This document shows positions 5,188 to 60,609 of a stretch of DNA of 64,000 bases, piece after piece. The notes under the pieces were generated by a model that searched no databases, was not told where the DNA came from, and saw only the letters and a program-made list of their open reading frames with translations. Position numbers and translations under genes: made by a program. Source of the DNA: Pyxidicoccus sp. MSG2 (GTDB taxonomy: Bacteria; Myxococcota; Myxococcia; Myxococcales; Myxococcaceae); NCBI RefSeq assembly GCF_026626705.1, contig NZ_JAPNKC010000001.1:8264001-8328000 (forward strand), read 5' to 3'. Position 1 is the stretch's first letter. Each line of letters begins with the position of its first letter.

Positions 5188-6384
5188 ATGAGTGGACGTG
5201 TGAACCTGCTGGTGCCCGAGGTCCGGGCCAATCCCTATCCGACGTATGCGGAGCTGCGCCGTTCGTCCGTGTGTCAGGTGGACCCGGGCGGCTACTGGGT
5301 GCTCACCCGGCATGACGACGTGGTGGCGGCCTTCAAGAACCCGCAGGTGTTCTCCAGCATCGGCATGCGCGTGGTGACGAAGCCGGCGTGGCTGGGGCAC
5401 AACCCGTTCGCGGACTCGATGATTGGCATGGACCCGCCGAACCACACGCGGCTGCGGACGCTGGTCAACCGCGCCTTCGGCCCGCCCGTGCTGGCCCGCC
5501 TGGAGCCGCGCATCCGCGCCTTCGCGGGCGCGATCGTGGACCGCATCCCCGAGGGCACGCCGGTGGACTTCGTGGATGCCTTCTGTCTGCCGCTGCCCGC
5601 GAGCGTCATCGGCGAGCTCATCGGACTGGACCCCACGCAGCACCACCTGTTCAAGCGCTGGGCGGATGACCTCACCAGCATCACCTCCATCGGTCCCAGC
5701 CCCGGGCAGGAGACGGCCCGCATGGCGGAGATTCGCGCCACGGTGAAGGAGACGGAGCAGTACATGGGCCGCGTGCTGGCCAGCCGCCGCGCCGAGCCCC
5801 GCGATGACGTGGTGACGGACCTCATCAACGCGCGCGTGGACGGTGAGTCGCTCAGCGACGCGGAGTTGATGAACTTCATGTTCCTGCTGCTGGTGGCCGG
5901 GCTGGAGACGACCATCCACCTGATGAGCCACTCGCTGCGGCTGCTGATGGAGCACCCGGACGTGCTGGAGCGGCTGCGCAAGGACACCTCGCGCATTCCG
6001 CGCTTCCTGGAGGAGGTGCTGCGCTACGAGCCGCCGGTGCAGGCCATCATGCGCGTCACAACCACGGACACGGAGATTCGCGGCGTGACGATTCCGAAGG
6101 GCTCGCCGGTGGCGCTGATGATGGGCGCGGCCAACCGTGACGAGTCGCACTTCCCCGGCGCGGAGACCTTCGACATGGACCGCGAGGGGACGAACAACCT
6201 GCCTTTCGGGCACGGCGTTCACTTCTGCCTGGGCGCGCCGCTGGCGCGGCTGGAGACGCGGCTCGGGCTGGAGGCGCTGCTGACGCGCTTTGCCCGCTTC
6301 ACGCCGGCCGGGCCGATGGAGTGGAACCGCTCGATGACGGTGCGCGGCCCGGTGAAGATGCCCGTGGTGGCCCACGCGAGGTGA
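5188..6384 (+). CDS. cytochrome P450
   Basis: A 398-residue soluble bacterial P450. The heme-thiolate loop FGHGVHFCLGAPLARLE is near residue 345, the I-helix oxygen-activation segment AGLETT near residue 238, and the K-helix ExxR (EEVLRYE) near residue 278. ATG 5188 is preceded by GGCGAGGA; a TTG start at 5119 would add a 23-residue tail with no family character. No ferredoxin or ferredoxin reductase gene lies next to it, so redox partners must come from elsewhere. The substrate is unknown. It may be under the downstream TetR regulator, but the palindrome lies after this gene, so that link is weak. Confidence 0.92.
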   Translation: MSGRVNLLVPEVRANPYPTYAELRRSSVCQVDPGGYWVLTRHDDVVAAFKNPQVFSSIGMRVVTKPAWLGHNPFADSMIGMDPPNHTRLRTLVNRAFGPPVLARLEPRIRAFAGAIVDRIPEGTPVDFVDAFCLPLPASVIGELIGLDPTQHHLFKRWADDLTSITSIGPSPGQETARMAEIRATVKETEQYMGRVLASRRAEPRDDVVTDLINARVDGESLSDAELMNFMFLLLVAGLETTIHLMSHSLRLLMEHPDVLERLRKDTSRIPRFLEEVLRYEPPVQAIMRVTTTDTEIRGVTIPKGSPVALMMGAANRDESHFPGAETFDMDREGTNNLPFGHGVHFCLGAPLARLETRLGLEALLTRFARFTPAGPMEWNRSMTVRGPVKMPVVAHAR

Positions 6385-8491: not shown

Positions 8492-8622
8492 GGCGCGCTC
8501 CCGTGCTGGTGGCCTTCAAGGCAACCGCTGGGGACGCCCACTCCCAGGAGCAAGCCGAGACGGGCGGCTGGAGGCTCCAGCGCCCGGCTCGCCCCCCGGT
8601 CGACATCCCGGGAGGCCAGCGC

Positions 8623-9474
8623 TCACGCCTCGATATCGAACGCGAGCGACGCCCGCTCTCCCGGCTGCACGTGCAGCAGCCCTTCACCCGTGGCGAGCGC
8701 GCCCGCCGCCGCCGTCCAGGGCTCCACGCAGACGAAATCCCTGCCCTTCAGCGTCCACACCACGAGCAGGCGGAACTCCGGGCTCCAGGACAGGTGCACC
8801 GGCCGGCTCCCCGGCCCGCGCTCCAGCTTCGTCCCCGGGCCCGAGTGGTCCCTCAGGTGCAAATCCACCTCGTCCCGCGTGAGGTCCAGCCCGGTGAAGG
8901 GCACCTCGCGCTTGAGGCGGTTGTCCCAGGCGTGCGTGGCGTCCGTCTCCACGGTCGCGCGCGCCTTCATCGCCTCCGGCACCCGGAAGTAGGGGTGATA
9001 GCCCAGGTGCAGTGGCAGGGGCCGGCGGTCGTCCTTGTTCTCCAGGTCGAAGTCCAGCGTCAGCCGCGTGCCCACCAGCGAGAAGGTGAGCTGCGCGTCG
9101 AACTCCCAGGGGAACTGGCGCAGCGTCTCTTCACTGGAAGAGAGGCCCACCACCAGGAGGGACTCCTCTGCCTGCCGCACCTTCCATGGCAGCCGCCGCG
9201 CGAAGCCGTGCTGCGGCAGCGAGTACGTCTGGCGGTCCGCGGGGTACGTATCCCCGGGCAGCGGCCCGGCGATGGGGAAGAGGACGGGAATGCCGCCGCG
9301 CACGTTCTTCGCCGGGTCGGCGACGGTGGCCTCGTCGAGGTAGAGCACCTCGTCGCCGTCCACCGTCATCCGCGTGACGAGGGCGCCGCGCGAGGGAATC
9401 ACCTCCACGCGGCACCCGCCGTCCACCAGCGCGTACGTGTCCAGGCCGCCGATGCCGGGGAATGGACCGCTCAT
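8623..9474 (-). CDS. aldose 1-epimerase / D-hexose-6-phosphate mutarotase family protein
   Basis: A 283-residue protein of the galactose mutarotase superfamily. Family features are the VEVIPSRGALVTRM strand near the N-terminus, NVRGGIPVLFPIAGP, the histidine in LPQHGFAR, and the LHLGYHPYFRVP segment with a second histidine. These enzymes interconvert anomers of aldoses or hexose phosphates through a Glu/His pair. It starts just after the stop of the pruA gene on the same strand (about 7 bases), so it may be co-transcribed with proline catabolism, although no pathway link is obvious. The exact sugar is unknown. Confidence 0.8.
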   Translation of the reverse strand: MSGPFPGIGGLDTYALVDGGCRVEVIPSRGALVTRMTVDGDEVLYLDEATVADPAKNVRGGIPVLFPIAGPLPGDTYPADRQTYSLPQHGFARRLPWKVRQAEESLLVVGLSSSEETLRQFPWEFDAQLTFSLVGTRLTLDFDLENKDDRRPLPLHLGYHPYFRVPEAMKARATVETDATHAWDNRLKREVPFTGLDLTRDEVDLHLRDHSGPGTKLERGPGSRPVHLSWSPEFRLLVVWTLKGRDFVCVEPWTAAAGALATGEGLLHVQPGERASLAFDIEA

Positions 9475-11137: not shown

Positions 11138-11232
11138 GCGGGCTGACCTCGGGACGGAAATGAAGGGCAGGGGAGCATAACCAACCCACTCCTCCAAGAC
11201 AGCGAGGAAGCAGGCGGGGTCTGTCGACAACC

Positions 11233-11247
11233 CCTGGATTTTCCAGG
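11233..11247. promoter_or_regulatory. inverted repeat between divergent pruA and the purine operon
   Basis: CCTGGA-TTT-TCCAGG is a perfect 6-base inverted repeat in the 160-base divergent intergenic region. It could be an operator shared by, or specific to, one of the two transcripts. No regulator gene is adjacent, so the binding protein is unknown. Confidence 0.35.
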
Positions 11248-11299
11248 AGCTCCCTGTCCTACGGGTGACATTGGCTGATGGACTCCATGCACGGGTACG

Positions 11300-25085: not shown

Positions 25086-25816
25086 ATGCGACCGATGCGC
25101 AGCTTCGGCGGTAGGGGTGGAGGCGGGCTGCCCGGCCTGGAAACGACGGCGTCCAAGCTGGCCGCCGCGCTGGTGGCTGGCTCCATCCTGTACCACCTCA
25201 CCAAGGGCGGGCAGGGAGGCCTGCTGCTGCTGCTGCCGGACTTCGTCTTCAGCCGGCTCTTCCTCTGGCAGCCGCTCACCTACGGGTTCATCGAGGCGAG
25301 CCCCTTCGGCATCATCTTCGGCGCCATCATCACCTGGTCCATTGGCGGCTACCTGGAGTCAATCTGGGGAGGCAAACGCCTGCTGCTGGTGGCGGTGGGC
25401 GTCACCGTGCTGGCGGGCGTGCTCACGTCGCTGCTGGCCATGGTGGTGCCCGGGGCGACGGTGCAGGCGTACACCGGTGGCAACGTCATGACGACGGTGC
25501 TGTGGGTGGCGTATGGCCTGAGCATCGGCCGGGGTGAGACGAACTTCTGGGGCATCCCCCTGTCGGGCAACGCGCTGGCGGGCGTGGGCGCGGGCTTCGT
25601 GGTGCTGATGGCCATCATCGGGCCGTGGCAGGCCAGGTGCCGGACCTGCTCGCGCTGGGCATGGTGTTCGCCTACGTGCGCGGCGCCAACCCGCGCCGGC
25701 TGATGCTGCACTTCCAGCACTGGCGCCTGCAGCGGCAGCTGAGAGACCGCTCCAAGCACCTGCGCGTGGTGCCGAAGAACCAGAGCCGCCCGGACCGGGA
25801 CCAGTTCCTCAACTAG
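25086..25816 (+). CDS. rhomboid-like membrane protein, frame interrupted near 25625
   Basis: The first frame (25086-25703, 205 residues) has five or six hydrophobic segments. Its WQPLTYGFIEASPFG and GGYLESIWGGKRLL segments resemble the rhomboid core. The expected GxSG serine region reads AYTGGNVMTTVL instead, so it looks like a catalytically dead rhomboid/derlin-type protein. Hydrophobic sequence stops abruptly at GPWQ and becomes junk (CRTCSRWAWCSP). The natural continuation VPDLLALGMVFAYVRGANPRRL lies in the -1 frame from about 25631 and ends at 25816 with a basic tail. This means either a one-base sequencing or assembly error, a true inactivating mutation, or recoding. Confidence 0.65.
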
Positions 25817-29173: not shown

Positions 29174-29201
29174 TCCGAAGCACAGCCCACGCTGAATGAC
29201 G

Positions 29202-29240
29202 GAGGGGCCTCCCACGCTGGTGGGGGCCCCTCTTTCATTT
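29202..29240 (+). terminator. Rho-independent terminator after the YceI gene
   Basis: GAGGGGCC plus CCCAC pair with GGTGGG plus GGCCCCTC around a GCT loop, followed by TTTCATTT. It ends the dioxygenase-YceI transcript and faces the convergent giant gene. Confidence 0.8.
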
Positions 29241-29303
29241 GCGGGCTGTCTCGTGGAGGAGGGCGCGCCCGGAGTGGAGCGCGCCCCTTCCGAGGTGTGG
29301 GCC

Positions 29304-32300
29304 TCAGCCCTCCGCCACCGCCTGCACGCTGGAGCGGTAGATGAAGATGCGGGCGGTGTTGGTGCGCTGGTCCGCGGGGATGACGAAGAAGCCCGGGGTG
29401 GCGCCCTTGAAGTCCTGCGAGAAGCCCGCGACCTGGCGGCCGTCGTTGAAGGTGACGCGAATCTTCTGCCCCTCGGCCTGCGGCTGGCGCGAGCCGGCGG
29501 TGAGCATGAAGAAGATGGCCTTCACGCGCTTGCCTGGAATCTGCTCGGGCGCGTAGCCGCTCTGCTGCTCCAGGGAGATGACCTCGTCGAGCAGGTCCGC
29601 GTCGCGGATGGTGCCGCGCTTCACCTGGCCCTCGACGGTGTGGATGATGACGCGGTGCTCGCCCTCCACGAAGGAGGTGATGGGCGCCGAGTCCACCACG
29701 GCCGGCTGGGCGAAGAACGGCTCGCGCGCGGCGCGGAGCTGGTTGGCGGGCGGCGTGGGCTCGGCGACGGCGGGGGCCACGGCCGGCACGGCGACGGAAG
29801 CCCGGGTGTTCGGGGCGGCCGTCACGACGGGCGAGGGCGGGATGACGACCGGGGTGCTCGCGGAGGCCCTGGGCGCCGGGGCGGCGCTGGCGGGAGTCCG
29901 GAGGACGGACGACACGGCGGAGGAAGCCACGGCGGCGGCGGCCATGACGGCGGCGACAGGCGCGGGCGGAGGCGGCGCGTAGGCCGCGGGCGGCGGCTCC
30001 ACGGACTCCTCCACGAGGTCGATTTCAGCGAGCTCCTGCTCGGACTCGAGTTCCACCGGGACTTCTTCCTCGGCGGGCGAGGGCGGCGGGGCGTCGAGGC
30101 TGACGTCCACGGCGTCATGCTCCGCCGAGGCGAAGTCCTGGGCCTGGGTGCCGAAGGGGCTGCTGCCGGACTGCCAGGCCGGAGCCGCCGGGGGCTCCTC
30201 GGCCCACGGCTGCTCGGGAGTGGCGGGCTCCTGCTCCCAGGGCACCGCCTGGGCGGGCGCGCCGAAGGGCGAGTCCGTCTGCGCGGGCGTGGAGTTCCAT
30301 TCCGGCTCGACTTCGACCGGTGCGTCGCTCCACTCGGACTGGGCGGCCTCGGTGGGCGCGTCGGTGACGGAGATTTCCTCGGCGGGCGTCTCGCTCCACT
30401 GCGAGGAGGCGGCGGACTGCTGCGCGCTCCACTCGGGAGCGGGCTCGGCCTCCGGCGTCACCCACTCGGGCTGGAGCTCCTCGGGAGCGGCCTCGGCCGC
30501 GGGCGTGGCCCACTCGGCCTGGACGGCGTCGGCGGGGAGCTCCTCCATGGGGGAGGCCCACTCGGCCTGGGCGCTCTCGGGAGCGGCTTCGGCGGTGGGG
30601 GCGCTCCACTCGGGCTGCGCGGGCGTGGCGGCGGCCCACGCGGGCTGGGCACCGTCGGCCGCGGGCTCGGACCACTCGGCCTGGACGTCCTCGGGCGCGA
30701 GCTCCTCGACGGGCGTGGCCCACTCGGGCTGGGCGGCCTGCGGAGCGGCGTCGGGGGTCCACTCGGCCTGGACGGCCTCGGGAGCCAGCTCTTCGACAGG
30801 CGTGGCCCACTCGGGCTGTGCCTCGGCGGGAGCGGCTTCAGCGGTGGGGGAGGCCCACTCGGCCTGCACATCCTCGGCGGCGACTTCTTCGGACGCGCTC
30901 CACTCGGCCTGGGGGGCGGCTTCGGTGGCAGGCGTGGCCCACTCGGACTGAACGGCCTCGGGAGCGAGCTCCTCGGCGGGCGTGGCCCATTCGGCCTGAA
31001 CCGCTTCGGCCGGAACTTCCTCGGCGGGCGTGGCCCACTCGGCCTGGGCAGTCTCGGGGGCGAGCTCCTCGGCGGGCGTGGCCCACTCGGACTGCACGGC
31101 GTCGGCGGAGATCTCTTCCGCGGGAGTGGCCCACTCGGGCTGGGCGGCCTCGGGCGCGGCTTCGGCAGGCGTGGCCCACTCGGGTTGCACGGCGTCGGCG
31201 GCGACTTCTTCCGCGGGAGTGGCCCACTCGGGCTGGGCGGCCTCGGGCGCGGCTTCGGCAGGCGTGGCCCACTCGGACTGCACCGCGTCCGCGGCGACCT
31301 CTTCAACAGGCGTGGCCCACTCGGGCTGGGCGGCCTCGGGTGCCGCCTCCTCGACAGGGGGCGCCCACTCGGCCTGGAGCTCGACGGGTGCGGATTCTTC
31401 GGCGGGGGCGGCGGTCCACTCGGACGGCGCGGCCTCGGTGGCGGGAGTCGCCCACTCGGCCTGCTGGGCGTTGGCGGACGCGTCGTCCGTCTCCGCGCTG
31501 GCCCACTTCGACGCCGTGGCGGCGCCCGGGTCGGTCGCGGGCGTCTCGGCCGACACCCATTCGGGCTGCAGCTCGATGGCCGCTGACTCCTCGGAGGTGC
31601 TGGACGTCGCGGTGTCCGGCGTCCACTCGGACTGGAGCTCCACCGCCGAGGTGTCGGCCGTGTTGTTCCAGGCCTCGCCGGTCGTACCCATTTCCGACAC
31701 GAAGTCGGCATTGCTCGCGAGCGGCACGGCGTCCGCCGAGTCCCCGCTCCAGCCGGCAACAGTGGACTGTCCGTCGCTCCGGAGCTCCATGCCCCGGTCA
31801 TCGGCGGACGTGAAGCTGCGGTACTCGACGAACTCGCCCGCGGCTGCGAGCGGCACCGCCTCCTCGGGGTTGCCGCTCAGGTCGAACATCTCCTGGGAGG
31901 AAGGCGGGCCCACGTACTCGCTCGCGGCGGGAGCGGCAGACCCACCGGCAATCTCGAGCGTGTCGGCCTGGAGGTCCGGGCCCACCTGCACCGAGCGAAT
32001 CTCGAGCGACGGCACGTCAGACGTCGCGAACGGAGACCCGGCCTGTGCCTCGGGCTCCACCTCGGTGCCGAGGTCGGCCGCGTCGAACGTGGGCGGCTCC
32101 GAGCTCTCGGGGGCCGACTCGATGTCCATGACATCGAGCGACGGTTCCTCCGCGCCGGGGGCAGAAGCCTCCATCGAGGCGAAGTCCGTCGCGTCGGCGG
32201 CACCCAGCTCCATCGTGGGCACGCTCTCCTCGGAGCCAACAGACGAGGCGGGAGCGGACTCCTCGCTCACGTCGGAAGCGTCGAGCGCAATCTCCTCGGC

Positions 32301-35141
32301 CGTTGCCGACGCGCCCTGCTCCCAGGTCGCGCCCGCTGCGTCCGGAGACTCCACCGCGGCAGACACTTGCGCGTCCTCGTAGCCGGAGTCCGCGTAGGGC
32401 TCGGCCTCGCTCACGTCGGAAGCGTCGAGCGCAATCTCGGCCGGGGCGGCCTCGCTCACGTCGGACGCATCGAGCGCAATCTCGGAGGAAGACGCCTGCG
32501 ACTCGCTGACGTCGGAAGCGTCGAGTGCAATCTCCGCCGGGGCGGCCTCGCTCACGTCGGAAGCGTCGAGCGCAATCTCGGCCGGGGCGGCCTCGCTGAC
32601 ATCGGAAGCATCGAGTGCAATCTCCGCTGGAGCGGCCTCGCTCACGTCGGACGCATCGAGTGCGATTTCCGCCGCACCCGTCAGGTCCTCGGGAGCGCTC
32701 TCGCTCTCGGCGGACTGGGTGAGCTGCACCGAAGAGGCCTCGGCCTCCGTGCTCGCCAAGTGCGCAGTGCTCTCGGTGGACGCATCGAACTCCGCGGACG
32801 TCTGGGCCTCGGCAGGAGTGCCCGAGTCCCAGGCGCCTGCCGCGTTCTCTTCGAACGAGTTCGGTTCACCCGAAGCGCCCGCGTTCCACTCGGTCGCCGT
32901 GTTCTCCTCGAACGAGGTCGCCTCGCCAGGCGTTACCCACTCACTTGCCGCGTTCTCGGCGACCGGAGCCGTCTCGCCCGATGCGCTCGCGTCCCACCCA
33001 CCGGTTGCGTTCTCAGTGCCCGGAGCCGCCTCGCCCGAAGCGCCCGCGTCCCAGTTGTTCTCCTCGAACGACGACGTCTCGGCAGGCGTGCCCGAGTCCC
33101 ATGCACTCGCGGCGACTTCCGCAACGGGAGTCGCCTCGGCCGGAGTGCCGGAGTCCCAGGTGCTCTCCGCGTTCTCGGCGAAGGTGCCCGTCTCGGGCGG
33201 GGTGCCGGAGTCCCAGGTGCTCGCGGCAGCCTCGGCAACCGGAGTCGCCTCGGCCGCAGTGCTCCACTCACCCGCCGCGCCCTCTTCGAGAGAGGCCGTC
33301 TCGCCCGGCGTGCTCCACTCGCCCGCCGCGTTCTCCACGGCCGGAGTCGCCTCGGCCGCGGCGCTCCACTCACCCGCCGCGCCCTCCTCGAACGAGGCCG
33401 GCTCCGCCCCGACCGAGCTCCAATCGTTCGACGCAGCCTCCGCAGCCGGCTCCGCCTCGACCGAGCTCCAATCGTCCGACGCAGTCTCCGCGACCGGAGC
33501 GGCCTCGTCCGCAGACGCGGCCTCGATCATGTCGGAGGCATCGAGCGCAATCTCCGCGCCCGCCTGCGCTGCATCCGTGGCGACCGCCCCGGTCTCCTCG
33601 GAAGCCCCCGAAGTCGTCGCGCCCATGTCCTGGGCCATGAACTCGACGTCGGCATCCTCGGCCGGAGTGGCATCCTCCATCGCCGCGACCTCGATGAGGT
33701 CACCCGCGTCCGCGACCTCACCCTGCGCGGCCTCCACGGCGAGCGGGGCGGATGCCCACGCTTCGTCCATGGGCGTGTGCTCCTCGGCCAGCAGGGGCTC
33801 GCTCTCGGCCGTTGCGTCGACCAGCTCGACCTCGGAGGACGCCACCTCCAGCTCGGCGGACGCCGACTCCACGTTCTCGGGCGCGGCGGGAGCCTCCGGC
33901 TCCGACTCGACCTCCATCGACAGGTCGGCGAACGACGCCTCCAGCGACGCCTCGGGCTCGGTGGCGGAAACGGACTGGGCCTGCTCCGGCTCGCCGATCG
34001 AGGAGAAGTCATCCTCCGCAACCGTCGCGCTCGAAGCCTGGGGCAGCGGCTCCGCGCTCTCGGCCGCCGCGTCCGACTCCATCAGGTCCACGCTGACGTC
34101 CGCGAACGAGGCGGACGGGTCCGGGGTGGTGTCGACCGAAACGTCCCCTTCCGACACCTCGAGCACGTCCTCGGCGGGGGCCGCGGCCTCGACGGCCGGC
34201 TGCTCCTCGGAGCCCTGCGTCTCCTGCTCCGGAGCGGCCGGGGTCTCCGCGGCGCCAGGGGTCATCCACGGCGCGGGCTCGCTCAGCGCGGGGATGTCGA
34301 TGTCGTCCGCACTGAGGGCCAGCGCATCCTGCTCGGCGGGAGCCTGCGGCGCGTAGCCGTTCGGGTCCTGCTGCCCATAGCCGGAGTAGGGCTGCTGCTG
34401 CGCATGGCCCGCATAGGCCTGCTGCTGCGCGGGGTCCGCGGCGTAGCCCTGCTGCGCGTTCGGATCAGTCTCCCAACCGGCATGGCCCTGCGGCGCGTTC
34501 GGGTCATAGCCCGGCTGCGCATAGCCCTGGTTCGGGTCGTACCCGCCCTGCGCGTTCGGGTCATACGCCTGCTGATTCGGGTCGTACCCGCCCTGCTGCG
34601 GGTAGCCCGCGTAGGCCTGCGCGTTCGGGTCATAACCCGGCTGCGCATAGCCCTGGTTCGGGTCATAACCCGGCTGGGCGTAGGCCTGCGCGTTCGGGTC
34701 ATAACCCGGCTGCGCATAGCCCTGGTTCGGGTCATAACCCGGCTGGGCGTAGGCCTGCGCGTTCGGGTCGTAACCCGGCTGCGCGTAGCCCTGGGCGGGG
34801 TAGGCGTACCACTGGCCGTCCGCGCCGTAGTAGCCCTGGGGCTGCTGCTCGGCGTAGCCAGCGGGGTAGGCGTACCACTGGCCATCCGCGCCGTAGTAGC
34901 CCTGGGGCTGCTGCTCGGCGTAGCCGGCGGGGTAGGCGTACCACTGGCCATCGGCGCCGTAGTAGCCCTGGGGCGCCGCCTGCTGCTGCCAGGCGGCCTC
35001 GGACACGGGGGCCGCATCCTGGATGCCCAGGAGCCCGCGCAGCTCATTCCAACGAGCCTCCTCCACCGGAGACAGGCTTCCCAGCTTCCGCTTCTCGTCC
35101 AAGAAGCGAAATTCTCTCATCGCCGCGCGCGTGTCCGACAT
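29304..35141 (-). CDS. 1945-residue repetitive protein: prion-like N-terminus, acidic repeats, C-terminal domain
   Basis: Layout: residues 1-40 form a charged helical head (REFRFLDEKRKLGSLSPVEE). Residues 50-265 are Q/Y/G/P-rich, with three copies of GYYGADGQWYAYPA (59-72, 81-94, 103-116) and about ten YDPN units (roughly 123-215). Residues about 270-1750 are Ala/Ser/Glu/Pro-rich, strongly acidic and almost free of lysine, with EIALDASDVSEAAP units (about 820-960) and many EWATPAEE units (about 1190-1640). Residues about 1800-1945 look folded (GEHRVIIHTVEGQVKRGTIRDAD, then GQKIRVTFNDGRQVAGFSQDF). There is no signal peptide and no membrane segment. I do not recognise the family. A scaffold or condensate-forming role is inference from composition. 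Confidence 0.85.
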   Translation of the reverse strand: MSDTRAAMREFRFLDEKRKLGSLSPVEEARWNELRGLLGIQDAAPVSEAAWQQQAAPQGYYGADGQWYAYPAGYAEQQPQGYYGADGQWYAYPAGYAEQQPQGYYGADGQWYAYPAQGYAQPGYDPNAQAYAQPGYDPNQGYAQPGYDPNAQAYAQPGYDPNQGYAQPGYDPNAQAYAGYPQQGGYDPNQQAYDPNAQGGYDPNQGYAQPGYDPNAPQGHAGWETDPNAQQGYAADPAQQQAYAGHAQQQPYSGYGQQDPNGYAPQAPAEQDALALSADDIDIPALSEPAPWMTPGAAETPAAPEQETQGSEEQPAVEAAAPAEDVLEVSEGDVSVDTTPDPSASFADVSVDLMESDAAAESAEPLPQASSATVAEDDFSSIGEPEQAQSVSATEPEASLEASFADLSMEVESEPEAPAAPENVESASAELEVASSEVELVDATAESEPLLAEEHTPMDEAWASAPLAVEAAQGEVADAGDLIEVAAMEDATPAEDADVEFMAQDMGATTSGASEETGAVATDAAQAGAEIALDASDMIEAASADEAAPVAETASDDWSSVEAEPAAEAASNDWSSVGAEPASFEEGAAGEWSAAAEATPAVENAAGEWSTPGETASLEEGAAGEWSTAAEATPVAEAAASTWDSGTPPETGTFAENAESTWDSGTPAEATPVAEVAASAWDSGTPAETSSFEENNWDAGASGEAAPGTENATGGWDASASGETAPVAENAASEWVTPGEATSFEENTATEWNAGASGEPNSFEENAAGAWDSGTPAEAQTSAEFDASTESTAHLASTEAEASSVQLTQSAESESAPEDLTGAAEIALDASDVSEAAPAEIALDASDVSEAAPAEIALDASDVSEAAPAEIALDASDVSESQASSSEIALDASDVSEAAPAEIALDASDVSEAEPYADSGYEDAQVSAAVESPDAAGATWEQGASATAEEIALDASDVSEESAPASSVGSEESVPTMELGAADATDFASMEASAPGAEEPSLDVMDIESAPESSEPPTFDAADLGTEVEPEAQAGSPFATSDVPSLEIRSVQVGPDLQADTLEIAGGSAAPAASEYVGPPSSQEMFDLSGNPEEAVPLAAAGEFVEYRSFTSADDRGMELRSDGQSTVAGWSGDSADAVPLASNADFVSEMGTTGEAWNNTADTSAVELQSEWTPDTATSSTSEESAAIELQPEWVSAETPATDPGAATASKWASAETDDASANAQQAEWATPATEAAPSEWTAAPAEESAPVELQAEWAPPVEEAAPEAAQPEWATPVEEVAADAVQSEWATPAEAAPEAAQPEWATPAEEVAADAVQPEWATPAEAAPEAAQPEWATPAEEISADAVQSEWATPAEELAPETAQAEWATPAEEVPAEAVQAEWATPAEELAPEAVQSEWATPATEAAPQAEWSASEEVAAEDVQAEWASPTAEAAPAEAQPEWATPVEELAPEAVQAEWTPDAAPQAAQPEWATPVEELAPEDVQAEWSEPAADGAQPAWAAATPAQPEWSAPTAEAAPESAQAEWASPMEELPADAVQAEWATPAAEAAPEELQPEWVTPEAEPAPEWSAQQSAASSQWSETPAEEISVTDAPTEAAQSEWSDAPVEVEPEWNSTPAQTDSPFGAPAQAVPWEQEPATPEQPWAEEPPAAPAWQSGSSPFGTQAQDFASAEHDAVDVSLDAPPPSPAEEEVPVELESEQELAEIDLVEESVEPPPAAYAPPPPAPVAAVMAAAAVASSAVSSVLRTPASAAPAPRASASTPVVIPPSPVVTAAPNTRASVAVPAVAPAVAEPTPPANQLRAAREPFFAQPAVVDSAPITSFVEGEHRVIIHTVEGQVKRGTIRDADLLDEVISLEQQSGYAPEQIPGKRVKAIFFMLTAGSRQPQAEGQKIRVTFNDGRQVAGFSQDFKGATPGFFVIPADQRTNTARIFIYRSSVQAVAEG
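30520..31640 (-). repeat. imperfect EWATPAEE-coding repeats
   Basis: An array of imperfect 24- to 69-base units inside the giant gene, each encoding a Q-[AP]-EWATP-x-EE core with variable alanine/proline spacers. Unit lengths are multiples of three, so the frame is kept. The spacing alternates between short and long forms, which suggests higher-order duplication of blocks. Confidence 0.7.
32245..32675 (-). repeat. 45-bp tandem repeats coding EIALDASDVSEAAP
   Basis: Seven units encode EIALDASDVSE, four of them in adjacent 45-base copies that differ at only a few positions (for example GGGGCG against GGAGCG). An isolated eighth copy (EIALDASDM) lies near 33540. The near-identity of the adjacent copies suggests recent duplication. 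Confidence 0.75.
34490..34968 (-). repeat. tandem repeats in the prion-like N-terminal coding region
   Basis: Two kinds of unit sit side by side. One is about 66 bases, encodes GYYGADGQWYAYPAGYAEQ and is present three times between about 34798 and 34968. The other is about 63-66 bases and encodes AQPGYDPNQGYAQPGYDPNA, repeated between about 34620 and 34790 with further degenerate copies to 34490. Nucleotide identity between neighbouring copies is very high. Confidence 0.75.
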
Positions 35142-35266
35142 CCGTCACCTTGCTGCGGACAGCGTACTTCGCAGGGTACTGCCGCAGCGTGAATGGGGGG
35201 CTGCGAGTGTAGGGGACTCCCGGGGAGGGGTAAACCAATTGGACCGGGCTCGGTTGGCAGCCTCCC

Positions 35267-36661
35267 CTACTGGAGAGCAGCCCGCACGTCCTCGTCGAGG
35301 GAGGCCAGGGTCTCCCCGTAGTGGTCCCGCAGGGCCTCCTCGATGGGTCTTCCCCCTCCCACCTCTCGGATGAAGGTGATGAGCCGCTCGGCCCCCCCCC
35401 GCCGCACCAGCTCCCTCACGGCGATGGCGGACGTCGCATAGGCAACGCTCGGGTTCCTGGAGAAGATGAGGGACTGATCCGCCATTTCCGCCAGTCGGGG
35501 CAGCTTTCCGGCCTTGGCCGCGCTGGTCATCGCGTTGCGGACGATGCGGTTCGGCGGGGACTCCTCCCCCAGGTAGCGCCACTCCACGTACTCGGCCAGC
35601 CCCTCGTTGAGCCAGACGGGCAGGGTGTCCCGAGCCCCCTGGGTGTAGCTGTCGAGCACGGCGTGGACGTACTCGTGCACCAGCGTGGCCCGGGTCTCCT
35701 GGCTCATCTCCGCCGCGTCGTTGATGCGGATGGCGTCGTCCGAGTAGAGCCCGGCGATCATCTGGGCCCGCTGCTTGCCGAAGTGGAGGCTGAACTCCTC
35801 GCGGGTGTAGAGGATGACGTCCACCGGTCTTTCACGCGTCTCGCCAATCTCGCGCAGGGTGAAGTCGTAGGCCTCGTCCAGGGCGGCGACGACGCGGCCC
35901 TCGTAGTCGGCGCGCTGGCCGAAGTCGCGCTGGTTGTTGAAGTAGCGGATGACGAAGCGGCTGTTGGAGCGTGTTCGCATGCCCCCCGTGTCCGTGCCGG
36001 ACTCGTAGGTGAGGCTGGCCGAGCGCGTCTCGCCCTTGTCCCCACGCCCCGTCGCCGGGGCGACCTCCAGCTCCGTCCCCGCCGGCCGCCGTCCTCCCCC
36101 CTTGCCATTCATGAGCTGCTCCAGCCGCTCCGCCTCCTTGCGCGCCGCGCCCTCCTCGTTCGTCTTCGCGCGGGCCTGCTGCACCAGTCGCTTCGCCTCG
36201 GCGGCCTCGCGCGAGCGGGGCGGCACCTTCTCCAGCACCGCCAGGGCCCCCGCGGCGTCCTGCTCCTCCAGCAGCAGCCGGCCCAGCTCCAGGGGGAAGG
36301 CGCCGTCCTTGGGGTGCTTCTCCATGCCCTTTCGCAGGGCGGCCTCGGCGGAGGCCCGCTGGTCCGTCTTGCGCGCCGAGCGGGCCAGGCACCGCAGCGC
36401 ACCGGCGGACTCGTCGTACACGGCGGCGCGCTCGCCCAGCGAGTACGCCATCACCGGGTCCTCGCCCAACAGGGCCTCGCACCCCTTGAGGAGCGCGCCG
36501 GAGATGGTGCGGCGCTGCGCGTCCGGCACGTCCTTCACCTCACCGGAGGCGAAGGCGAGGTACAGGTCCTCCCAGGCGCGGCTCGCGGCCAGCTCCTTCG
36601 CCTTCTGGGCGGACGGCGGCGGGGCGGCGGCGAGGACCAGGGCGACGAGCAGGGCACGCAT
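35267..36661 (-). CDS. secreted MA-type gluzincin metallopeptidase with TPR-like region
   Basis: A 464-residue protein with an N-terminal signal peptide (residues 1-18). Residues about 20-180 are helical and TPR-like. From about 230 on there is a peptidase-MA domain: zinc motif HEYVH in TLVHEYVHAVL near residue 330, and the third ligand glutamate in NEGLAEYVEW about 25 residues later. It should act as a zinc protease in the periplasm or outside the cell. It lies upstream of the giant gene on the same strand, with 125 bases between them. Its start ATG (complement of 36659-36661) has no strong ribosome site. The substrate is unknown. Confidence 0.82.
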   Translation of the reverse strand: MRALLVALVLAAAPPPSAQKAKELAASRAWEDLYLAFASGEVKDVPDAQRRTISGALLKGCEALLGEDPVMAYSLGERAAVYDESAGALRCLARSARKTDQRASAEAALRKGMEKHPKDGAFPLELGRLLLEEQDAAGALAVLEKVPPRSREAAEAKRLVQQARAKTNEEGAARKEAERLEQLMNGKGGGRRPAGTELEVAPATGRGDKGETRSASLTYESGTDTGGMRTRSNSRFVIRYFNNQRDFGQRADYEGRVVAALDEAYDFTLREIGETRERPVDVILYTREEFSLHFGKQRAQMIAGLYSDDAIRINDAAEMSQETRATLVHEYVHAVLDSYTQGARDTLPVWLNEGLAEYVEWRYLGEESPPNRIVRNAMTSAAKAGKLPRLAEMADQSLIFSRNPSVAYATSAIAVRELVRRGGAERLITFIREVGGGRPIEEALRDHYGETLASLDEDVRAALQ

Positions 36662-56478: not shown

Positions 56479-58056
56479 TCACTGCTTCGCGGGAGCCCCG
56501 AGCGGCACCGGCACCACGCGCGAAGCGCCGAAGGCCGGCGCCCAGACGTCCTGCACCTCGGGCCCGTTGAGGAACGTCACCAGCGCCCGGAAGGCGGACA
56601 GCGGGCCTCCCAGGCTTTCCGCCCACGCCTGTCCCCGAGGCGAGAGGTTGGGCACCAGCGGCCCCAGTTCCTCCAGCGTTGACGCGGAGCGGGTGACGGC
56701 GAGCCCCTCATCTCGCAGCCGCTGGGGCACGTACAGCGGCGCGAAGCGCGCGTGCCGGTGGTCGTGCACGCAGCCCTCCTCTTCCAGCAACGCGGCCGAC
56801 AGTGGCAGCTCGCGCACGTTGAAGAGGAGCTTCACCGAGCCCAGGTGCGGGTCATACGGCCCGCGCAGCCGGTGGTCGCCCCGGGGGATGAGGCGCCGGT
56901 CCAGGTAGCAGTACGCCAGCGCCTCGTGCGGCACCGTGCCCCGGTGGCGCGCGCCTCCGTAGCGGAAGAAGGGACGCACGTGGCTCGGGTCCACCTCCAG
57001 CGGCGGGCCCGCCTTCAGCTCGCGCAGCTTGGGGAGCAGCGTCTCCGGCAGTCCATGCGCCCGCGCGAAGTCGGGCAGCTCTTCCTTTCGGGCCGCGGCG
57101 AAGGCTCGCAGGCGCGCCAGCAGTCGCTCCGCGTCCGCATCCACCAGCAGCTCGTCGAAGCGTGTCTTCACGCCGGGCAGGCTCACCGGAACCAGCGTGC
57201 TCAGCGGTTCGCCCTCCGCCCGCCAGCGCGCGTCCAGGTCCGCGGCCTCCGGGGCCGTGGGCGCGAGGCGCCACTCCGGGGATGCGGGCGTGAAGCCCTG
57301 CCAGACGCCCCGGCGCTCGTAGCGCGGTGCCCCCCGAGGGCCCGGCAGCGAGGACCACACGGTGATGCACGTGCGCACCTGCGTGCCGGAGAAGGCGCCG
57401 GGGCCCAGGTCCACGACCTCGCGCAGGGACAGCGTGGCCAGCAGGGACTGGCGCAGCGGAGCGTAGAGGAACGCGTCCAGAAGCGTCGCCGGGGTGATGA
57501 AGGCGAGCACTCCGGGACGCGAGACGAGCCGGTGCGCGGCCACCAGCAGGAAGAAGGCGAAGTCGTCGCGCAGGCTGGTGCCCGGCGGCAGGGCCAGCGG
57601 GAGCAGGGCGCGCAGGCGCGCGTAGGTGCTCGCGTCCTTCAGCACCGGCGACGTGCCGTTGTAGGGCGGGTTTCCCACCCACAGCTCCCGGTGCTCCGGC
57701 GGCGTGGCGGCGAGCAGCGGCTCCAGCCCGCCGCGCAGCGAATCTCCCACGCGGATGTCCGCGCCGGGCACGCGGGACTGGCAGACGCGCGCCACCTCCG
57801 GGTCCAGCTCCAGGCCGCACAGTCGCGCATCGGGCCGCCGCTTCGCCGCCGCCGCGAGGAAGGCTCCCGCGCCGCACGCCGGGTCCACCACGGTGAGCGG
57901 GCCTCCACCCAGGTGCTCCAGCGCGAGCGCCAGCGTGCGCTCCACCAGCGGCGCGGGCGTGAAGAACGCACCCACCGCCTTGCGGTTCAGCCCGGGGAAC
58001 TGACGGACGAGCTTCTCCTCGTCCACCTCCAACGGGCTGTTGGCAGCGCGTCGCAT
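56479..58056 (-). CDS. N6-adenine DNA methyltransferase, apparently orphan
   Basis: A 525-residue class I methyltransferase. The SAM-binding motif I DPACGAGAF is at 58-66 and the catalytic motif IV NPPYN at 129-133, the order of gamma-type N6-adenine enzymes. An N-terminal KAVGAFFTPAPLVERT segment matches Eco57I/type IIG-like enzymes. The C-terminal part (about 240-525) should hold target recognition. There is no PD-(D/E)xK nuclease motif in the protein and no endonuclease gene beside it. The ATG at 58056 follows GGGGGGA; 58068 and 58083 are alternatives. The gene stands alone. Confidence 0.8.
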   Translation of the reverse strand: MRRAANSPLEVDEEKLVRQFPGLNRKAVGAFFTPAPLVERTLALALEHLGGGPLTVVDPACGAGAFLAAAAKRRPDARLCGLELDPEVARVCQSRVPGADIRVGDSLRGGLEPLLAATPPEHRELWVGNPPYNGTSPVLKDASTYARLRALLPLALPPGTSLRDDFAFFLLVAAHRLVSRPGVLAFITPATLLDAFLYAPLRQSLLATLSLREVVDLGPGAFSGTQVRTCITVWSSLPGPRGAPRYERRGVWQGFTPASPEWRLAPTAPEAADLDARWRAEGEPLSTLVPVSLPGVKTRFDELLVDADAERLLARLRAFAAARKEELPDFARAHGLPETLLPKLRELKAGPPLEVDPSHVRPFFRYGGARHRGTVPHEALAYCYLDRRLIPRGDHRLRGPYDPHLGSVKLLFNVRELPLSAALLEEEGCVHDHRHARFAPLYVPQRLRDEGLAVTRSASTLEELGPLVPNLSPRGQAWAESLGGPLSAFRALVTFLNGPEVQDVWAPAFGASRVVPVPLGAPAKQ

Positions 58057-58299
58057 CCGTCCCCCCATCCTAGCCACCGACATACCGCGCCCGGGCCGGG
58101 CCCACCCCGAGGTCCTCCACTCAGACGCGCTGGTGTGTCCTTCGCGTCAACTCACCTGCCCTGGAGGGCGATACGCGTCGCGGCGTGCCTTCGCGGCCGA
58201 CCCACGGCGCAAGGGCCGTCGCGCGTTGGGCGGTGGCAGCAGGGCCCGCGCTGGCGGGTCATGGCGGGAATGGCCGGGGGGCTCGACCCTGCGGCCACC

Positions 58300-60609
58300 A
58301 TGAAGACCCCCACCCGCCGCAGGGCCCTGTCGAGAGCCCTCGCCGCATGCTGCCTGCTGGTCGTCGTCCTCGCTGCTTCACCCGCCCAGGGACTGCCGCG
58401 CCTTCCTCCCGTGGCCGCCGTGACGCTGTCGCAGGCGACGCCGCCCCTGGACCTCGAGCCTGGACAGGTGGTGGTCACCTTCACCTTCGCGGACACGCTG
58501 AAGACCCAGGTGCTCGTAGGGCCGCTGTTCGCGAAGTACGGGATGCACGCCACGTTCTACATCAGCGCCGGGCGCATCGGCCGGTCGGGCTATCTCACGC
58601 TGGCGGACCTGCGCGCGCTCGCGGCCGCAGGGCACGAGATTGGCGGACACACGCTGGACCACGAGGACCTGGACCCGCTACCCCTGGCGGAGCAGCGGCA
58701 TCAGGTCTGCGACTGCCGCGTGGCCCTCATGGGCTACGGATTTCCCGTCACCTCGTTCGCCTACCCCTTCGGCTCGGAGGGCGCCACGGCGAAGCAGACG
58801 GTCATCTTCTGCAACTACAACAACGCGCGCCACACGGGCCGCATCCGCTCGCCCACGGGGTGCAACTCCTGTCCGTTGGCGGAGAGCGTCCCTCCCGCGG
58901 ACGCGTTCAGCATCCGCTCGCCCACCTCCATCAAGTCGGACTGGACGCTCGCCAATCTGCAGAGCCTCGTGCTCCAGGCGGAGAACGGCGGTGGAGGGTG
59001 GATCATGATTTCCCTCCACGACATCTGCTCGGGCTGTGGCACCTATGCCATCACCGAGTCCCTGCTGGACTCGTTCCTCGCCTGGCTCGCGCCGCGCGTG
59101 TCCCGAGGCACCTTCGTCCGCACCGCGCATGAGGTGGTGGGCGGGGCCGTGAAGCCGCCCATCCGCGCCGATGGTGGTGTGGTCGACGGGGGCGTTCCCG
59201 ATGCGGGCGTGCTGGACGCCGGGTCACCGGATGCGGGCACTCCGGATGCGGGCACTCCGGATGCCGGGACTCCCGACGCGGGCATCCCCGACGCGGGCGT
59301 ACCGGATGGAGGCTCGCCGGACGGTGGTGGGCCCCAGTTGCTCCCGAACCCCTCGCTGGAGGTGGACGCCGATGGCGACAACGTCCCGGACTGCTGGAAG
59401 CGCACCAATGCCGGCACGCAGTCCGGAAGCTGGAGCCGGACGACGGACGCGCACAGCGGGAGCTGGGCGCAACGGGTGACCCTCACCAGCCTCTCCACCG
59501 GCGGCGAGCGGCGGCTGGAGATTCGTCAGGACTTCGGCACGTGCCCGCCCTCCGTCGTGGTGGGGCGCCGCTATCGCGTCTCCGCCTGGTACAAGACGAC
59601 GGCTCGCGCGGGCTTCAGGGCCTTCTACCGGACGGCCTCGGGCTGGGTGGCCTGGAGCGCGGGGCCGGACCTGCCCACGAGCACCAGCTACAGACAGGGA
59701 GAGTGGCTCACCCCACCGGTGCCCTCGGGCGCGGTGGCCATCAGCGTGGCGCTGGCATTGCGCTCCACGGGCACGCTCACCATGGATGATTTCAGCCTCG
59801 TGGACGCGGGCACTTCACCCACCTCGACGCTCACCGTCCTGTCGCCTCGTGGCGGTGAGAGCCTGTCCGAGGGTGCTCCGATGGGCCTGCGCTGGAGCGA
59901 CACCGGCTCGGAAGCCACGGTGGACCTCGCCTGGTCTCCCGACCTGGGGAGCACGTGGACGCCCATTGCCTCGGGTGTGCCGAACACGGGTCGCTACACC
60001 TGGAGGGTGCCAGGGATGCTCACCACGCGCGGGTTGCTGCGCGTGTCCCATCCTGCGGCGTCCGGCATGTCGGCCCAGAGCCAGGGGCCGTTCTCCATCT
60101 TCCTGCCCGCCCTGGGCCGCGTGGTCCGGTTCGGCGACGTGTGGCGCTATGACGCGAGCGGCGTGGACCCCGGGCCGGACTGGTTCCTGCCTGCCTTCGA
60201 CGACTCCGCGTGGGCCACGGGGCCCGGCGAGCTGGGCTACGGAGACGGCGACGAGGGCACGGTGCTGCTGCGCACGTTCTCCGCGCAGCCCAGCATCTAC
60301 TTCCGCAAGAAGGTGATGCTCGCCCGTCCCATCTCCTCCGCCACCCTGCGCGTCCGCTTCGATGACGGAGTGGCCGTGTGGGTGAATGGCACGCTCGTCT
60401 TCAGCCGCGAGGTGGATGGAGGGCTGGCGCACACGGCCTATGCGAGCGCCTCCCTGGACAACGCCGTGGTGGACGTGGCGCTCCCCGCTTCGGTGTTCGT
60501 CGCCGGGGAGAACACGGCGGCGGTGATGGTGAAGCAGGTCGGGCCCAACTCGCCAGATGTCTCGTTCGACCTGCAGCTCGACACGGTGGCCGCGCCTGCC
60601 GCTGAGTGA
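58300..60609 (+). CDS. exported NodB-like polysaccharide deacetylase with carbohydrate-binding modules
   Basis: A 769-residue secreted protein. A signal peptide (1-30) is followed by a NodB-type domain (about 55-285). Its two metal histidines are in GHTLDH (H117, H121), but the usual TFDDG reads TFADT, keeping Asp65 and lacking the catalytic-base Asp. A Pro-Asp-Ala-Gly repeat linker spans about 290-345. After it come a CBM-like module (LLPNPSLEVDADGDNVPDCW), a Kre9-like Ig module (VLSPRGGESLSEGAPMGLRW) and a galactose-binding-like C-terminus (about 605-769). A surface-polysaccharide target is likely. ATG 58300 starts the signal peptide; the longer frame upstream is spurious. Confidence 0.85.
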   Translation: MKTPTRRRALSRALAACCLLVVVLAASPAQGLPRLPPVAAVTLSQATPPLDLEPGQVVVTFTFADTLKTQVLVGPLFAKYGMHATFYISAGRIGRSGYLTLADLRALAAAGHEIGGHTLDHEDLDPLPLAEQRHQVCDCRVALMGYGFPVTSFAYPFGSEGATAKQTVIFCNYNNARHTGRIRSPTGCNSCPLAESVPPADAFSIRSPTSIKSDWTLANLQSLVLQAENGGGGWIMISLHDICSGCGTYAITESLLDSFLAWLAPRVSRGTFVRTAHEVVGGAVKPPIRADGGVVDGGVPDAGVLDAGSPDAGTPDAGTPDAGTPDAGIPDAGVPDGGSPDGGGPQLLPNPSLEVDADGDNVPDCWKRTNAGTQSGSWSRTTDAHSGSWAQRVTLTSLSTGGERRLEIRQDFGTCPPSVVVGRRYRVSAWYKTTARAGFRAFYRTASGWVAWSAGPDLPTSTSYRQGEWLTPPVPSGAVAISVALALRSTGTLTMDDFSLVDAGTSPTSTLTVLSPRGGESLSEGAPMGLRWSDTGSEATVDLAWSPDLGSTWTPIASGVPNTGRYTWRVPGMLTTRGLLRVSHPAASGMSAQSQGPFSIFLPALGRVVRFGDVWRYDASGVDPGPDWFLPAFDDSAWATGPGELGYGDGDEGTVLLRTFSAQPSIYFRKKVMLARPISSATLRVRFDDGVAVWVNGTLVFSREVDGGLAHTAYASASLDNAVVDVALPASVFVAGENTAAVMVKQVGPNSPDVSFDLQLDTVAAPAAE

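Follow-up and report, generated by a model that had tools for sequence, protein, structure and literature searches.

A giant myxobacterial protein with a helical head, a long acidic chain and a DUF6982 tail, a candidate two-ended scaffold

Introduction

Caulobacter PopZ has a short client-binding helical end, an acidic linker and a separate C-terminal assembly region. In the eukaryotic LSm/P-body proteins LSm4, Scd6/LSM14 and Edc3, an Sm-like domain is joined to a low-complexity chain, and P-body LSm proteins concentrate RNA-protein complexes via a prion-like chain. Prion-like domains of the FUS type are rich in Ser, Gly, Tyr and Gln, low in charge, with Ser abundant. Repetitive Tyr/Trp-rich chains occur in adhesins.

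The protein described here, from Pyxidicoccus sp. MSG2, joins a helical head to a DUF6982 tail through a very long, acidic, repetitive chain. Its overall plan appears undescribed in the literature searched; the tail family is already named, without a function. A literature search for DUF6982 gave no paper, and none on this protein was recognised by title among the matches listed, most matches lying beyond those listed. The gene is widespread and mostly single-copy in myxobacteria, which draw study for their development, motility and predation, and it has no described function.

Results

Gene and reading frame

The window is a stretch of 64,000 nucleotides (contig 1, bases 8264001-8328000) of a genome of 13.34 Mb. 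The gene and its parts are placed as follows, in window coordinates.

29304-35141, minus strand: whole gene; 1945 aa, 200 kDa, pI 4.05, no Cys.
35013-35141, minus strand: head, residues 1-43; helical hairpin by AlphaFold from an 18-row alignment.
34296-35012, minus strand: Tyr/Gln/Gly/Ala/Pro-rich region, residues 44-282; no Lys/Arg.
34795-34974, minus strand: three 22-aa GYYGADGQWYAYP repeats within the Tyr-rich region.
29697-34295, minus strand: acidic middle, residues 283-1815; net charge -316, one Lys.
32397-32675, minus strand: EIALDASDVSE repeat array, in the middle.
30432-31378, minus strand: PEWATPAEE-type Trp repeats with 48- and 93-bp periods.
29307-29681, minus strand: tail, residues 1821-1945, DUF6982; ten predicted beta strands in two Sm-like halves.

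The giant frame is real. Coordinates, length and strand given in an earlier sequence-only reading were exact, and codon-position GC (0.73/0.57/0.88) resembles that of the two neighbour genes tested (0.72/0.49/0.94 and 0.60/0.44/0.95). Four long antisense ORFs lie over the gene; they are probably shadows of its repeats and could be mis-annotated as genes. In 29196-31586(+) and 32367-35192(+) codon GC is highest at position 1. In 30148-30951(+) and 31030-32382(+) position 3 is highest, but position 2 exceeds position 1, unlike in the neighbours. Elsewhere in the window, a 1285-aa ORF at 56752-60609(+) has 15-, 30- and 45-bp tandem repeats at 59184-59308.

Distribution and divergence

DUF6982 is present in 155 of 195 genomes of the phylum (a single match in 150, more than one in five), in 128 of the 149 of good quality, and in none of 14 control genomes. 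Among 145 genomes of the order, 108 have head and tail, 24 the tail only and four the head only (head E up to 0.01). Tail places are listed for 107 of the 108 (the exception is G086): head and tail share one frame in 80 and stand on different contigs in 27, which we read as assemblies broken in repeats. Frames with both ends are 316 to 2358 aa long and form a natural series for what a giant disordered chain contributes; in the 25 genus genomes with both ends in one frame the length is 1837-2358 aa. Genome size was rejected as the driver of length: Spearman correlation is +0.52 over the 80 genomes but -0.50 over the 25 genus genomes, neither value being corrected for phylogeny.

Scanning genome contigs with the tail gave 37 loci; 20 are full-length and include the head, while 17 are open at the 5' end. 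Among relatives that bear a name, Pyxidicoccus caerfyrddinensis is the nearest, its tail being 99% identical. Myxococcus xanthus strain AM003 has a full-length ortholog (L013) of 1973 aa, which puts experiments within reach in an established model. Paired with nine relatives, the window protein shows 68-98% identity over the head and 63-99% over the tail; over the middle, identity is 34-86% and 199 to 843 columns are gaps, 199 being the count for the closest relative, L005. The Corallococcus ortholog L015 is 91% identical in the head, 89% in the tail and 48% in the middle. Among 20 far loci the hairpin is recognisable in L072, L074, L076, L081, L083, L088 and L090, and is not seen by eye in, for example, L071, L073, L077, L079 and L080. 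The spacer between head and tail shrinks to about 40 residues in L072, the shortest measured, and is 134 in L074. One locus, L016, is titled Comamonas sp. KCTC 72670 (BNCN01000001.1); the gene is present, with a tail 94% identical and Myxococcus-like neighbours, and the record is probably mislabelled.

Head

Helices are predicted at residues 3-19 and 25-38 (AlphaFold, 18 aligned rows), with block pLDDT 94-97 over residues 11-40 and pTM 0.64. The head had been called conserved, which is true in part: its profile matches 112 of the 145 genomes of the order (E up to 0.01), and 24 of the 132 tail-bearing genomes show no head. The two-ended plan is therefore not that of the whole family. Extra head matches are found in G078, G087, G094 and G155. 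In G094, contig C2 has two further copies (8530-8661 and 11138-11269, in frames of 472 and 163 aa) that score the same as the copy on C1. The genome of the window has one significant head match and one significant tail match, the next head match being at E 4.96. Against the PDB, the head profile matches 12 chains, best E 0.1.

A PilZ protein (Pfam) of the same genome, G000:C1:9267967-9268371, begins with a helical-looking stretch that resembles the head (head profile E 0.066; hhalign probability 83.8 for this single chosen pair). The likeness may point to a shared partner; it counts for little, because 15 matches lie outside the gene, this being the best of them, and inspection by eye shows no such head in five other PilZ-like frames.

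Tyr-rich region

Nine YDPN units are present. Residues 61-300 consist of Ala 18.8, Gln 16.7, Tyr 14.6, Gly 13.8, Pro 13.3, Asp 7.9, Asn 4.6 and Ser 1.2%; within residues 46-282, which lack Lys and Arg, Tyr makes up 15.2%, Gln 18.6%, Gly 13.9% and Pro 12.2%. The FUS-like composition proposed from sequence is thus only partly borne out: Tyr, Gln and Gly are high and Lys and Arg absent, as in FUS, but Ser amounts to about 1%, Ala and Pro are abundant, and Asp stands in every YDPN unit. DGQWY occurs exactly three times in 13 of the 14 proteins with at least three copies (21 proteins read; those with fewer fall outside the count). The block is absent from the full-length ortholog L039 and the spacer is very short in distant relatives, so the prion-like part is not universal.

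The Pfam family Ephrin_CRD scores on the DGQWY repeats (window protein E 5.8e-6, 26.7 bits, just under the cut-off of 27; L015 E 0.0016) and was judged compositional because the protein has no Cys. OCRE and choline-binding-like repeats were considered and dropped, the repeats giving no such Pfam match. Elsewhere in the genome the Tyr repeats have one match (E 0.056) and the EIALDASDV array three at E up to 1 (0.0059, 0.33, 0.74); the frames holding the best outside match of each are uninformative.

Acidic middle

As had been claimed, the middle is acidic and nearly free of Lys: its 1533 residues include ten Lys plus Arg, one of them Lys. Outside the tandem-repeat arrays (865 of 1428 codons, residues 301-1728), counts against the codon-position expectation are Lys 1 versus 18.4, Arg 4 versus 24.1, Glu 129 versus 66.9, Trp 22 versus 6.7 and Asp 60 versus 65.8, and the Poisson figures for them are a guide only, as they assume independent codons where related repeats are not independent. 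The acidity thus comes from Glu, which exceeds expectation, and not from Asp, which has no bias. The spacing of Trp is most commonly 16 residues (16 of 56 Trp-Trp intervals in the protein).

The same bias is kept in 15 of 21 full-length proteins (Lys 0-3 versus 18-42 expected, Trp 31-85 versus 5-12; Lys and Arg rare, no Cys, Glu and Trp common), in a comparison that ignores relatedness, repeats and orthologs descending from common units. It is weak in the shorter-type proteins L032-L036 (Lys 4-12 versus 11-14 expected, in one of them 12 versus 12; Trp 7-10 versus 2-4); the remaining exception, L039, is too short for a judgement. The charge-hydropathy index marks 86% of residues 44-1815 as unfolded, versus 10% of the tail; it is near zero around 801-900 and positive at 1701-1800, an Ala/Pro stretch. 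The chain between the ends is thus by identity and composition fast-changing and of a disordered type, in agreement with the flexible spacer first suggested. Since the sequence diverges (34-86% identity) while the Lys-poor, Trp-rich composition holds, the persistent bias speaks more for a functional disordered region than for neutral slippage.

Tail

Residues 1828-1942 belong to Pfam PF22478 (DUF6982): E 2.7e-28, 99.1 bits over a curated cut-off of 24.5, covering profile positions 2-130 of 134. The model has ten strands (AlphaFold, pLDDT 89.9, pTM 0.84) and the pI is 8.3. The folded C-terminal domain announced earlier is accordingly distinct, conserved and confidently modelled as beta; the statement that no family is described fails for the tail, which carries a Pfam name, and stands in that no characterised family was found. 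In other proteins DUF6982 stands alone or behind an FHA-like domain recognised by eye (L084, L085; in L085 the distant DUF6982 protein is at 5594-5959).

By Foldseek against the PDB, the first five matches are Tudor (FXR1, FXR2, FMRP) and KOW domains (E 0.029-0.11, the best to a Tudor domain), with Hfq and LSm next; none has E <= 0.001. VIA-align, confined to Foldseek's list of structures, places YaeO first (Z 5.9), then a cytochrome c; at ranks 6-50 of the 50 matches listed, 36 are titled Hfq, LSm or Sm and nine are spliceosome, snRNP or decapping chains, which we take to be Sm/LSm. One half of the tail model is covered by 42 of these 45: the first half by 6gwk_A Hfq (Z 5.1, 57 residues, 1.7 A), for example, and the second by 4emk_C (Z 5.1, 54 residues, 2.4 A). 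The tail profile has a sole PDB match at E up to 10, LSm7 (E 1.5), and no LSM/Hfq Pfam match at E up to 1. A viral fold library gave three matches at <= 1e-3 (best 4.2e-4) that superpose poorly (TMq 0.36-0.58, rmsd 7-15 A). As modelled, the shape is likely a tandem Sm-like barrel, each half aligning best to Sm/Hfq-type chains at a modest Z of about 5; RNA binding does not follow from it.

Signal and membrane segments

No hydrophobic N-terminal stretch or signal peptide is visible by eye. An Ala-rich segment at residues 1729-1747 has a Kyte-Doolittle value of 1.99. Among the 36 of 38 proteins scored, the pre-tail segment has a maximum of 0.33-1.99, above 1.6 in five. A membrane anchor was rejected: the segment is Ala/Pro/Val-rich, varies among orthologs and is unfavourable in all 36 on a membrane-insertion scale. 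The reported absence of signal and membrane segments probably stands.

Neighbourhood

Two neighbours recur beside the gene.

35267-36661, minus strand: TPR + Peptidase_MA_2 protein; upstream neighbour on the same strand, 125 bp away, syntenic.
25086-25703, plus strand: rhomboid-like membrane protein; nearby, conserved in synteny.

The TPR-Peptidase_MA gene is upstream in 19 of 20 full-length loci (the miss is L039) and also beside the far loci L081 and L090; its product starts with a hydrophobic, export-like stretch (by eye). The rhomboid-like gene is downstream in 35 of 37 loci, the misses being L013 and L014, whose contigs end less than 2 kb past the tail. Its rhomboid/DUF1751-like product reads YTGGNV, and its synteny with the giant gene extends to distant relatives. 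Active rhomboids have the motif GxSG; this one is perhaps inactive. Both linkages are old and perhaps functional; they are not evidence of interaction. The remaining neighbours belong to ordinary families: threonine ammonia-lyase, glutamate dehydrogenase, thiolase, YceI and a DOPA-dioxygenase-like protein. A sigma-32-like gene is at window 42294. In M. xanthus, sigC is MXAN_6209 (PMC2875238), and MXAN_6208 is a hypothetical protein divergent from sigC (PMC4320627). A literature search on twelve MXAN tags near sigC gave a match for MXAN_6208 only, which could not be tied to the giant gene.

Discussion

The protein is tentatively read, at a little short of even confidence, as a cytosolic two-ended scaffold that possibly clusters partners. 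The reading is drawn from two constrained ends and a chain constrained more in composition than in sequence. Parts, conservation, composition bias and predicted folds are computational observations, from which binding at both ends, a cytosolic location and scaffolding go a step further. The helical-hairpin head and the tandem Sm-like tail would each bind something fixed. Between them, about 1780 residues of disordered chain would form a flexible, strongly negative brush with aromatic stickers, Tyr in the front part and Trp, often every 16 residues, behind. Through the stickers, a loose cluster or condensate could form from many copies or with a basic client. The net charge of -316 works against self-condensation, so that clustering would need either a basic partner to neutralise the charge or crowding. 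Formation of a condensate in the cell is plausible and speculative.

The main rival, somewhat unlikely, is a passive entropic spacer grown by repeat slippage. The middle would set distance or solubility only, with neither stickers nor condensates, and the two ends would do the work of a compact head-tail protein like the short relatives. The wide range of frame lengths, the short spacers of L072 and L074, and a middle full of DNA-level tandem repeats, with many gap columns even against L005, are what slippage would give. However, Lys, Arg, Glu and Trp depart strongly from expectation outside the arrays, frames of the genus stay within narrower bounds, and the DGQWY count is exactly three in 13 of the 14 proteins with at least three copies, all of which tells against a passive spacer.

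The tail could instead be a tandem Sm-like RNA module, with the prion-like chain concentrating RNA-protein complexes. The Hfq, LSm and Sm titles among the VIA-align matches, LSm7 as sole PDB match of the tail profile and a basic tail agree with this RNA-binding scaffold, which is nevertheless improbable. A Z of about 5 can reflect merely a common barrel, with YaeO and a cytochrome c in the top rows; Foldseek gives nothing significant and puts Tudor/FMRP and KOW domains first; LSM/Hfq Pfam matches are absent; a strongly acidic chain should repel RNA; and other DUF6982 proteins have the domain alone or behind an FHA-like domain. The boldest version is a long shot: a bacterial RNP-body scaffold spread across the phylum, in which an acidic chain, prion-like and studded with Trp, links a tandem Sm-like RNA module to a helical docking head. 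It would have arisen without common descent with the LSm/P-body proteins of eukaryotes and grown to about 2000 residues in the Myxococcus lineage, whose members are multicellular predators.

A secreted or surface adhesive or matrix protein made of repeats is very improbable: the chain recalls adhesins and the adjoining TPR-metalloprotease starts with an export-like stretch, but the giant protein itself has no signal peptide by eye, a helical hairpin at its very N-terminus and no conserved membrane segment. That the frame is an artefact of GC-rich repeats, as overlapping antisense ORFs might suggest, is already refuted: the window protein and its 20 full-length orthologs all retain the open frame with head and tail, and one frame is common to both ends in 80 genomes.

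Comparison with known systems

Pfam PF22478 covers the 134-position domain of unknown function only, neither the head nor the giant chain. From the eukaryotic LSm proteins the giant protein differs in having two predicted Sm-like halves, not one, and no significant sequence match. PopZ is roughly a tenth of the size, has no Tyr/Trp repeats, and ends in a helical tail where the giant protein has a predicted beta barrel. The likeness to it is one of description: Caulobacter PopZ is a disordered condensate scaffold (PMC9512792). PomX/PomY/PomZ of Myxococcus are other proteins, likened here by description and with no homology claimed; they form a myxobacterial intracellular complex, and the title of the paper on them speaks of a biomolecular condensate (PMC10307791).
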